From contig NZ_JRMH01000001.1 in the NCBI RefSeq assembly GCF_000803315.1, positions 372,001 to 436,000 on the forward strand: a stretch of 64,000 bases of DNA, given 5' to 3'. The notes under the pieces are model-generated. The model saw only the letters and a list, made by a program, of their open reading frames with translations, did not search any database and was not told where the DNA came from. Within the stretch, counting starts at the first letter, position 1. Each line of letters begins with the position of its first letter. This document shows positions 43,243 to 47,065 of the stretch, in pieces. The DNA is from Pectobacterium actinidiae. GTDB taxonomy: Bacteria; Pseudomonadota; Gammaproteobacteria; Enterobacterales; Enterobacteriaceae. A program made the position numbers and the translations under genes.

Positions 43243-43258
43243 AGTGACTGTTTTCACA
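43243..43258 (+). promoter_or_regulatory. CRP-like site upstream of the beta-glucoside PTS gene
   Basis: AGTGA-CTGTTT-TCACA matches the CRP consensus TGTGA-N6-TCACA with one mismatch. It lies about 55-60 bp before the likely 5' end of the leader RNA, a class I activation distance. A matching site precedes the partner glycosidase gene. Confidence 0.65.
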
Positions 43259-43310
43259 GAATAAAACGTGGAGATAGCTTTCTTCACATTAACTTGTTAG
43301 AAAACAGGAA

Positions 43311-43342
43311 AGGACGTCACCAGAATATTCTGGGCGAGACCT
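43311..43342 (+). promoter_or_regulatory. RAT-like RNA antiterminator of the PTS gene
   Basis: The stretch can fold as AGG-ACGTCA-CCAGAAT/ATTCTGG-GCGAGA-CCT: two outer pairs enclosing an asymmetric internal loop and a 7-bp inner stem. This is the layout of ribonucleic antiterminators bound by BglG-family proteins (GG-ATTGTTA-CTGC...GCAG-GCAAAA-CC). Its 3' end overlaps the first four bases of the terminator stem, so the two folds exclude each other. Confidence 0.75.
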
Positions 43343-43387
43343 GGATAAAGCAGCGTATAGCACGTTGCTTTATCCAGGTTTTTTTTT
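43339..43387 (+). terminator. Conditional terminator in the PTS leader
   Basis: ACCTGGATAAAGCA and TGCTTTATCCAGGT form a 14-bp perfect stem followed by eight or nine T residues, 85 bases before the gene. No gene ends here, so it must act as an attenuator. Confidence 0.9.
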
Positions 43388-43471
43388 GCTTATTTTCCAG
43401 CTGTCCAGCGGACAACAAGCGGGATGACGTGTATTAGGCAGTTGCAGCCATTGACGAAACGGGAAGTCATT

Positions 43472-45382
43472 ATGAATAGCAAAGTGCTCGCTGAAAATAT
43501 TCTGGAGTTAGTCGGAGGAGAGACGAACGTTTCTACTCTGGTGCATTGTGCAACACGCCTGCGCTTTAAGATTGTTGACCACAGCAAAGTGGATGTGGCT
43601 GCGCTGGAGGCGCTGGACGGCGTCATTACGGTGGTCAACGCGTCAGGACAATTGCAGGTGGTGATTGGTAATCGGGTGCCCGAGGTTTACCGCGCCTTTG
43701 GTTCAATCTCCAAACTGCTGGAGGACGGTGACGGTAAACGTCAGGCGACGGAAAGCGAGCAATCGACTTCAGCTATGGGACGACTGATTGATCTGGTTGC
43801 GGGGATCTTTACCCCATTGCTGGGGGCGATGGCGGCAGCGGGGGTGCTGAAAGGGGCGTTGTCCATCGTGCTGGCGCTCGGGTGGCTCAATGCCAAAGAA
43901 AGTACCTATGTCATCCTACATGCGGCGTCCGATAGCCTGTTCTACTTCCTGCCGATGCTGCTGGCGATTACCGCCGCGCGTAAATTTGAAACTAACATCT
44001 TTGTGGCCGTTTCGGTGGCTGGCGCACTGGTTTATCCGACGATTCAGGGGCTGTTTGATGCCGGTCAGCCTGTGACGTTCTTCGGGTTGCCCGTCGTGAT
44101 GATGAAATACACCTCCTCGGTGATCCCGATTATCTTCAGCGTATGGCTGATGTCATATATCGAGCGTTTCCTGAATCGCCATATTCACGAAAGCGTGCGC
44201 AATATCCTGACACCGTTCTTCCTGCTGGTGCTGATGGTGCCGCTCACGCTGATGACCATCGGGCCGATTGGTATTTCGGCCAGTAAGCTCATTGCGTCGG
44301 TGTTCGTCGGTATCTATGAGTTCAATCCTATTCTTGCCGGAGCGCTGATGGCGGCGTCATGGCAGATCTTGGTGATCTTTGGCGTTCATTGGGGATTTGT
44401 CACCGTCTTCATCAACGATCTTTCCGTCATGGGGCACAGCTACCTTAAAGCGGCCTCCAGCCCGTCAGTCTTTGCCCAGTCTGGCGCACTGCTGGGTGTT
44501 ATGGTGCGTACCAAAGATAAAAAGCTCAAAGCGTTGGCGGGCAGTACCTTTATCGCGTCGCTGTTTGGCATCACGGAACCCGGTGTATACGGCGTGACGC
44601 TGAAGCTGAAAAAACCGTTTATCTGCGCGGTAATCGCCGCTGCCATCGGTGGCGCTATCGTCGGCTATGCGAAAAGTTCAGCGGTCTCGATGGGAATGCC
44701 AGGCTTGCTGACGCTGCCGATTTTCTACGGAGAAGGCTTTGTCGGGTTCCTCATCGGGTGTGCGATTGCTTTCGTGGTGAGTTTTGTGCTGACGGTTATT
44801 GTTGGGTTTGACGATCCCGCTCAGCCTGTTGAGAAAACGCCCGCCCCAACGCACTCACCAACGGTTAAGCCTGCTGCGTCAGTATCACGCCAACACGCTA
44901 ATGCCCAACCGCTGAAAGAAGCACCGGCGACGGCTGAACAGTTGGGATCGCCAGTAAAAGGTGAACTGCTCCCACTGGAAGAGGTAAATGACAAGGTATT
45001 TTCTTCCGGTGTTGTCGGTCAGGGCATTGCTATTCTGCCGCAGGAAGGCCGTATCTATTCGCCGGTGGATGGCGTGATTGCCAGCACGTTCACCAGCGGC
45101 CATGCCGTCGGCATCCTCTCGCAGAATGGGGCGGAAATCCTGATTCATGTCGGCATCAACACGGTACAGCTGGAAGGTCAGCATTATGAAATGCACGTTG
45201 CGGAAGGCGACAAGGTGAAGAAAGGCCAACTGCTGCTAGCGTTCGATCTGGAAGCTATCCAGAAGGCAGGCTACGACACGGTGACGCCGATGGTGGTGAC
45301 GAATGCGGATGAATACCACCTATTCAGTTCAGGTTCCGCACGTCCGTTGGTGGTGGGAGAGACGGTGATCGCGTTGGCGTAA
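43472..45382 (+). CDS. Beta-glucoside PTS permease, EIIBCA (BglF/ArbF type)
   Basis: The protein imports and phosphorylates a beta-glucoside such as arbutin, salicin or cellobiose, using phosphate from HPr. The 636 residues have the BglF order: EIIB with phosphorylated Cys26 in LVHCATRLRF, a membrane EIIC (about residues 100-460) with GITEPGVYGV, a Pro/Ala/Thr-rich linker, and EIIA with the phosphorylated His near 559 in EILIHVGINT. MNSKVLAENI with GGGAAG upstream is the start. No BglG-type antiterminator gene adjoins it, although the leader carries its target. The phospho-glycosidase lies convergent downstream. The exact sugar is not predictable. Confidence 0.93.
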   Translation: MNSKVLAENILELVGGETNVSTLVHCATRLRFKIVDHSKVDVAALEALDGVITVVNASGQLQVVIGNRVPEVYRAFGSISKLLEDGDGKRQATESEQSTSAMGRLIDLVAGIFTPLLGAMAAAGVLKGALSIVLALGWLNAKESTYVILHAASDSLFYFLPMLLAITAARKFETNIFVAVSVAGALVYPTIQGLFDAGQPVTFFGLPVVMMKYTSSVIPIIFSVWLMSYIERFLNRHIHESVRNILTPFFLLVLMVPLTLMTIGPIGISASKLIASVFVGIYEFNPILAGALMAASWQILVIFGVHWGFVTVFINDLSVMGHSYLKAASSPSVFAQSGALLGVMVRTKDKKLKALAGSTFIASLFGITEPGVYGVTLKLKKPFICAVIAAAIGGAIVGYAKSSAVSMGMPGLLTLPIFYGEGFVGFLIGCAIAFVVSFVLTVIVGFDDPAQPVEKTPAPTHSPTVKPAASVSRQHANAQPLKEAPATAEQLGSPVKGELLPLEEVNDKVFSSGVVGQGIAILPQEGRIYSPVDGVIASTFTSGHAVGILSQNGAEILIHVGINTVQLEGQHYEMHVAEGDKVKKGQLLLAFDLEAIQKAGYDTVTPMVVTNADEYHLFSSGSARPLVVGETVIALA

Positions 45383-45389
45383 TCCAATC

Positions 45390-45428
45390 AATCAGACGGT
45401 GAGGCATGAGCTTACCGTCTGATTTCCT
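45390..45428. terminator. Shared terminator of the PTS and glycosidase genes
   Basis: AATCAGACGGT and ACCGTCTGATT form an 11-bp perfect stem between the convergent genes; T-rich tails follow on both strands. Confidence 0.85.
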
Positions 45429-46840: not shown

Positions 46841-46919
46841 GGTATTTCTCCTTATCGTTTTTTACATCATTACGCTGCGCCGGACGCTGGTTCCGCTCAG
46901 GGAACTACCGGATGACAGG

Positions 46920-46970
46920 CAAAAAAAAACTTGGGCAGAAGAGAGTAGTGCTACTCACCTCTGCCCAAGT
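46920..46970 (-). terminator. Conditional terminator in the glycosidase leader
   Basis: On the minus strand ACTTGGGCAGA and TCTGCCCAAGT form an 11-bp stem with an inner GAGTAG/CTACTC hairpin, followed by nine T residues. It lies 80 bases before the gene and cannot end any other gene, so it is an attenuator. Confidence 0.9.
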
Positions 46971-46997
46971 CTCGCCCGCCATTCGCGGTAACGTCTT
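46967..46997 (-). promoter_or_regulatory. RAT-like RNA antiterminator of the glycosidase gene
   Basis: On the minus strand it reads AAG-ACGTTA-CCGC-GAATG-GCGG-GCGAGA-CTT. The internal loops ACGTYA and GCGAGA are the same as in the PTS leader, while the outer pairs (AAG/CTT versus AGG/CCT) and inner stem have changed on both sides. The last bases overlap the terminator arm. Confidence 0.78.
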
Positions 46998-47005
46998 GTT
47001 AGTAC

Positions 47006-47033
47006 ACTATACAATCCTGAATTTCTGCGGCAA
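47006..47033 (-). promoter_or_regulatory. Glycosidase promoter
   Basis: Minus-strand TTGCCG (47033-47028) and TATAGT (47011-47006), 16 bp apart. Transcription would begin near 46999, immediately before the antiterminator element. Confidence 0.6.
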
Positions 47034-47049
47034 TGCCCCCGTCTGGTTA

Positions 47050-47065
47050 TGTGACTGCGATCACG
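47050..47065 (-). promoter_or_regulatory. CRP-like site upstream of the glycosidase gene
   Basis: TGTGA-CTGCGA-TCACG differs from the CRP consensus by one base and is centred about 58 bp before the predicted start of transcription. Confidence 0.68.

Follow-up and report, generated by a model that had tools for sequence, protein, structure and literature searches.

The 64,000-nucleotide stretch of Pectobacterium actinidiae DNA analyzed here (the window, G000:C1:372001-436000, where G000 is the source genome of the genus Pectobacterium) carries two convergent beta-glucoside genes, and both open frames are intact. The first, bglF, codes for a BglF-like permease of the phosphotransferase system (PTS), and the second, bglB, codes for a BglB-like 6-phospho-beta-glucosidase of glycoside hydrolase family 1 (GH1). 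The permease was recognized as a beta-glucoside PTS EIIABC by TIGR01995 (743.5 bits, cut-off 614.7). The start given in Table 1 is our choice, since the longest frame begins at 43424. Each gene is preceded by a leader that carries a CRP-like site, a ribonucleic antiterminator (RAT) element, and a strong intrinsic terminator that overlaps the element by a few bases and closes no gene. This arrangement was proposed in a preliminary description of the window, and was confirmed here in the sequence and by folding. As also stated there, no antiterminator gene lies nearby: BglG-family genes are absent from the window, and the closest of the five found in G000 (AT1 to AT5) is ~231 kb past its end.

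Both hairpins have two internal loops and, ahead of a sugar gene, overlap an intrinsic terminator, which is the make-up of a BglG/SacY-type RAT leader. Their loops are not the canonical ATTGTTA/GCAAAA. Both leaders carry ACGTYA/GCGAGA, and the outer pairs are AGG/CCT in the permease leader and AAG/CTT in the glucosidase leader, as had been described. The claim that the loop is one base shorter than the canonical one holds for the left loop, but the right loop has the same length and differs only in its letters (GCGAGA versus GCAAAA). When leader and terminator were folded together, z-scores of -9.4 (permease) and -6.0 (glucosidase) were obtained relative to dinucleotide shuffles; with the hairpins alone the values were modest (-1.7 and -2.2, respectively). 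Folded alone, the permease hairpin at minimum energy took CAGG a few bases upstream, rather than AGG, as its outer arm, with the middle and inner helices as described. All three hairpins of this type in G000, when folded in isolation, formed the middle helix at minimum energy, and the folds shifted once the terminator was included. In a canonical RAT, UUG pairs with CAA in the middle helix; in the variant hairpin this helix was read as CG:CG plus a possible U-G. The CRP-like palindromes and the promoters are readings by eye. Across 22 aligned permease leaders (22 genomes) the palindrome has a single variable base, while across 23 aligned glucosidase leaders (23 genomes) it is only partly conserved, and the half-sites vary too. 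Rfam RF03530 (bglG-cis-reg), which models a bglG/LicT operon leader, gave no match in the window leaders at its gathering score of 80: the glucosidase leader reached 20.0 bits only, and the permease leader had no match listed with E≤10 as the limit.

Table 1. Coordinates of the features. Positions without prefix are those of the window. Model matches refer to a covariance model built from 25 hairpins, among which are both window hairpins.
Feature	Position	Strand	Details
CRP-like palindrome upstream of permease leader	43243..43258	+	AGTGACTGTTTTCACA; read by eye; putative CRP site
Variant RAT hairpin, permease leader	43311..43342	+	AGG-ACGTCA-CCAGAATATTCTGG-GCGAGA-CCT; model match G000:C1:415311-415342, E 3.6e-9
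Intrinsic terminator, permease leader	43339..43387	+	hairpin and 9 T; overlaps 3' arm of RAT
Beta-glucoside PTS permease EIIBCA (bglF)	43472..45382	+	TIGR01995; PTS_EIIB, EIIC, EIIA_1
69-bp gap between convergent genes	45383..45451	.	single hairpin at ~45392-45423
GH1 6-phospho-beta-glucosidase (bglB)	45452..46840	-	PF00232 497.6 bits; NF007356 629.2 bits, cut-off 623
Intrinsic terminator, glucosidase leader	46921..46969	-	hairpin 46930-46969 and 9 T; overlaps 3' arm of RAT
Variant RAT hairpin, glucosidase leader	46967..46997	-	AAG-ACGTTA-CCGCGAATGGCGG-GCGAGA-CTT; model match G000:C1:418967-418997, E 2.5e-7
Putative -10 box, glucosidase promoter	47006..47011	-	TATAGT; conserved in 23 aligned leaders; putative promoter
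CRP-like palindrome, glucosidase leader	47050..47065	-	TGTGACTGCGATCACG (plus strand); read by eye; putative CRP site
Variant RAT leader of AT4 operon	G000:C1:1339914-1339947		covariance model
AT4, BglG-family antiterminator	G000:C1:1341628-1342461		~923 kb from window leaders
Prophage-like insert in G012	G012:C1:1567501-1602797		ends, read in L227 and L228, have tail fibre and late-activator genes

The covariance model was built from 25 variant hairpins, three of them from G000, and 150 of 2135 first-look candidates were scored. Among these 150 candidates, three matches were obtained in G000 with E≤0.01 as the limit. Two are the window leaders, and the third is the leader of a distant operon that codes for a GH1-like 6-phospho-beta-glucosidase and for the antiterminator AT4. 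As with the window leaders, a CRP-like palindrome precedes this third leader. No permease was seen among the frames of the operon, which were named by eye. AT4 has a CAT_RBD domain followed by two PRDs, like BglG and LicT, matches LicT structures by sequence, and scores 337.3 bits (cut-off 300) with the NCBIfam LicT model NF046042. All five BglG proteins of G000 have CAT_RBD and PRDs. The leader of AT1 has the canonical ATTGTTA/GCAAAA loops, and the leaders of AT3 have one TTGTTA/GCAAAA element and a second ATTGTTA element ending in GCAAAG. The leaders of AT2 (L011, about 10772, minus strand) and AT5 (L014, about 9994-10010, minus strand) have GCAAGA-type loops, which possibly mark further specificity classes. 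Judged from sequence, AT4 is the best candidate regulator of both window leaders. The presence of the same loop class in its own operon leader supports the earlier proposal that one BglG-like protein encoded outside the window controls two separate transcripts. In a genome-wide search for further copies of the loop pair, a third match of the pair as first read, at C2:455050, lies antisense inside an open reading frame (named by eye) and was discarded as chance.

The relation between protein and RNA was analyzed with 83 antiterminators sorted by a quick tree, in which AT4 falls into a 40-member clade (SH-aLRT 95). Two fragments (L133, L217) and two duplicates of genus rows (L212, L218) were left out of the tree and of the locus counts, and L220 (Brenneria) gave no protein of 200 amino acids, although its match spans residues 1-274. 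The RNA-binding domain carries the motif SNNA in 40 of 40 clade members and in none of the 43 other BglG proteins; the latter have NNNV (34 proteins), NNNA (6), NNNI (1) or NNS (2, namely AT2 and AT5). A variant [AG]CGTNA/GCGRRA hairpin adjoins the gene at 38 of 40 clade loci, the exceptions being those of G012 and G022, and at 0 of 43 others. Conversely, the canonical hairpin was found at 0 of 40 clade loci and 26 of 43 others, with neither type at the remaining 17. The flank lengths differed between clade and non-clade loci. When only 1.5-kb flanks were considered, 8 of 33 clade loci had the variant hairpin, which in the AT4 operons is ~1.7 kb upstream and so beyond such flanks, and none had the canonical one.

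The pattern GGACGTNA..GCGARACCT was then sought in 295 genomes of the family. All 13 genomes with an AT4-clade protein (threshold E≤1e-90) contain it, at 22 places in total, as do 5 of the 282 others, at 5 places. In one of these five, G313, a well-paired hairpin lies before a permease, and an SNNA antiterminator 44% identical to AT4 is encoded ~3.5 kb downstream; this prediction from RNA to protein had been noted ahead of the protein search and was borne out. The matches in G046, G146, G222 and G296 were rejected as chance, with an inner stem that is absent or poor by eye; G046 and G146 have NNNV proteins, and G222 and G296 have no antiterminator at E≤1e-20. Two to five variant leaders lie near one clade antiterminator in G067 and in records from Kosakonia, Pantoea, Erwinia and Klebsiella; in G067 two are found in one cluster, before a glucosidase and before permease-antiterminator genes. 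Pantoea and Erwinia records also show a further variant hairpin before a gene divergent from the permease (L213, 9986, and L215, 10009, both on the minus strand).

It is fairly probable that these results reflect a readable protein-RNA code, in which the clade with SNNA (its serine being residue 8 of LicT by our own count) reads ACGTNA/GCGARA and not the canonical loops, and would be insulated in this way from canonical antiterminators of the same cell. The distribution of motif and hairpin supports the non-canonical specificity that had been suggested for the window leaders. It remains to weigh whether one of the four other BglG proteins, likeliest the canonical arb/bgl-type AT1, drives both leaders by relaxed specificity. 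Cross-talk is known among BglG-type proteins, AT1, AT2, AT3 and AT5 share CAT_RBD and PRDs with AT4, and AT1-type genes, ~45% identical to AT4, are common in the genus. Yet the leaders of these four proteins carry other loops, no locus of either group showed the hairpin class of the other group, and G002, G006 and G021 retain AT1-type genes (L089-L091) but no intact permease. We consider control by AT1 or another of the four to be unlikely.

Control by AT4 was further assessed in a sample of 25 genomes of the genus, with the permease scored at E≤1e-200 and the AT4-clade gene at ≥60% identity without internal stops. The permease is present in 22 of the 25 genomes, and exactly these 22 have such an AT4-clade gene. 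In 17 the gene is remote only, in three (G013, G014, G023) it adjoins the permease only, and in two (G017, G018) both forms are present; when the 22 permease loci were counted again, the same five genomes had a local gene. The 19 remote AT4 proteins are 93-100% identical to AT4 of G000. By coordinates, permease and glucosidase are ≤90 bp apart in 12 of the 22 genomes, as in the window. In G013 an AT4-clade antiterminator gene stands alone between the two genes, and in G014, G017, G018 and G023 it comes after the permease and is itself followed by further genes. The loops at the permease locus stay the same with a local regulator of one subtype, with a local regulator of another, and with a regulator encoded almost 1 Mb away.

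Since G013 has an antiterminator gene exactly at the place of the 69-bp gap, loss of such a gene from the window is the simplest reading, and is probably how the window arrangement arose. Three points go beyond the preliminary description: the third leader, the antiterminator gene that some relatives have next to the two genes or in between them, and the probable loss. In G018 the permease is followed, in this order, by the antiterminator, a LamB-type porin, a Sde182-like protein, a sulfatase, an anaerobic sulfatase maturase, a second sulfatase and the glucosidase (L118:4112-12115), and similar frames were seen in L116, L117 and L119 of relatives. The sulfatase/porin cluster suggests that the substrate is a sulfated beta-glucoside. 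G004, G007, G009 and G016 have part of a cluster of this kind, with no antiterminator in it (by eye from frame starts). Loss of the middle of the cluster, in more than one step, would be the simplest reading, with gain as the alternative.

Variant hairpins from the genus and from other genera comprised 62 distinct sequences with flanks and 49 distinct cores, 25 of which were aligned. Their selection demanded ≥3 inner pairs, ≥3 outer pairs and a T run; under this rule no hairpin was obtained in L100 and L111 (both AT4 operons), L135, L158 and L219, and L135 and L158 have one with two outer pairs only. In the 25 aligned hairpins 99.6% of cells are paired, and changes on both sides with pairing kept occur in 37 cells, relative to a mean of 11.2 in shuffles and ≤8 in slid controls, but because the selection required pairing, the pairing is not independent evidence and the counts lean toward it. 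A measure of further pair types was not above the shuffles (10 versus 10.5). Covariation had first been argued from the two window leaders, which alone are thin material; in the wider, pairing-selected set, it is the change of stem letters while the loops stay fixed that is informative. In the genus, the element is held in 22 of 22 bglF and 23 of 23 bglB leaders examined, so that homologous leaders keep the pairing.

Could the leaders be relics, the local antiterminator being gone, the hairpins unread, and the genes silent or expressed by leaky readthrough only? Five of the 22 permease-bearing genomes have the local antiterminator that is missing in G000, the genes of G002 are broken at both loci, and the leader flanks are almost as conserved as the hairpin. 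On the other hand, all 17 permease-bearing genomes that lack a local gene retain the hairpins and have a remote AT4, and both window frames are intact, so that we regard a relic as very improbable. That the leaders are ordinary CRP-controlled promoters with constitutive attenuators, whose hairpin likeness is inherited and unused, would fit the CRP-like palindrome before each of the three leaders, but it leaves the association of clade and loop class across genera and the paired changes unexplained, and is scarcely credible.

With good confidence, we interpret the leaders as RAT-type switches of distinct specificity within a split regulon of three leaders driven by AT4. In the proposed mechanism, transcripts from the CRP-type promoters would end at the leader terminators when no inducer is present. 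Uptake of the sugar through the window permease would render AT4 active, its activity being set by phosphorylation from that permease. Active AT4 would then bind the ACGTNA/GCGARA hairpin and keep the overlapping terminator from forming, and RNA polymerase would enter the permease gene, the glucosidase gene and the operon of AT4 itself. The regulon would be split in that the permease has no antiterminator in the window, and the antiterminator has no permease at its own locus ~923 kb away.

Several observations weigh against this interpretation. Conservation of the RAT is clearly above that of its flanks in bglB leaders (0.996 versus 0.939 and 0.841), but little above in bglF leaders (0.979 versus 0.961 and 0.945) and slightly below the upstream flank in AT4-operon leaders (0.941 versus 0.950 upstream and 0.899), all leaders compared having been chosen by their RAT; purifying selection on the RATs is only partly supported by this comparison. 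The count of shared presence takes no account of phylogeny, and the lack of a functional permease and AT4 in G002, G006 and G021 may represent a single loss. In G002 the permease is broken, the glucosidase contains 3 stops, AT4 is a remnant and its leader has an altered loop, but the permease and glucosidase hairpins are kept; in G006 and G021 neither window leader has a copy at E≤0.01 (no model match in G006, one weak match of 28.7 bits in G021). In G022 the hairpin and the glucosidase are missing upstream of AT4, with no evident promoter, and in G012 a prophage-like insert of ~35 kb lies between the AT4-operon leader and the genes of that operon; with its leader lost or separated, AT4 may be expressed poorly in these two genomes. 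The AT4 match of G020 covers residues 1-255 of 278 only. In the clade, 19 of 40 rows are orthologues from one genus, and one of the 13 genomes of the pattern search, G052, has a completeness of 49% and a stop within its clade gene. A reversed control pattern matched 32 times in the 295 genomes, once within the 13; single pattern matches mean little, because the control outnumbers the 5 matches of the true pattern outside the 13. Two weak model matches, G001:C1:2023635-2023665 (24.5 bits) and G004:C1:2183458-2183488 (24.4 bits), are unexplained. Some cross-talk from AT1, AT2, AT3 or AT5 may also occur.

The switches belong to the known BglG/LicT-RAT kind. They share with the BglG/LicT/SacY systems (E. 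coli bglGFB, B. subtilis licT and sacY, and Erwinia arbGFB; covered in part by PMC1489936) the CAT_RBD and two PRDs, the two-internal-loop hairpin overlapping a terminator, and beta-glucoside PTS and 6-phospho-beta-glucosidase targets. They differ in having ACGTNA/GCGARA in place of ATTGTTA/GCAAAA, SNNA in place of NNNV in the RNA-binding domain, and antiterminator and permease genes about 0.9 Mb apart. There is a published precedent (PMC9981650) for a BglG-family protein that controls a further, separate leader: NagY of Enterococcus faecalis, a member of the BglG/SacY family, binds the leader of its own gene and also the leader of hylA; the nagY RAT is little like the consensus, and the second target was found by a covariance model. 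The NagY system concerns N-acetylglucosamine, with antiterminator and permease in one operon, whereas here no antiterminator adjoins the permease, and the proposed targets are one permease transcript and two glucosidase transcripts. In a search that mostly did not reach subscription journals, no literature was found on such leaders in Pectobacterium, Dickeya or Erwinia, or on a sulfatase link. A term search of PMC10991766, on Pectobacterium, showed NusG as its antiterminator and bglF as an entry in a table.

The points of interest are the apparent protein-RNA code and the split regulon. With five BglG paralogues in one cell, how does each avoid the leaders of the others? Protein motif and RNA loop class go together across several genera, which makes insulation directly testable, and if the code is true, operons could lose, swap or move their regulator. 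The genus supplies natural variants (regulator local, remote, both or neither, or with its own leader lost) in which the replacement of a regulator could be traced with the regulon intact.

Elsewhere in the window, positions 47998-52458 hold a single open reading frame of 1486 amino acids, read by eye as a molybdopterin oxidoreductase joined to a flavoprotein reductase. Its counterpart in a P. fontis record (L218) consists of two overlapping open reading frames.

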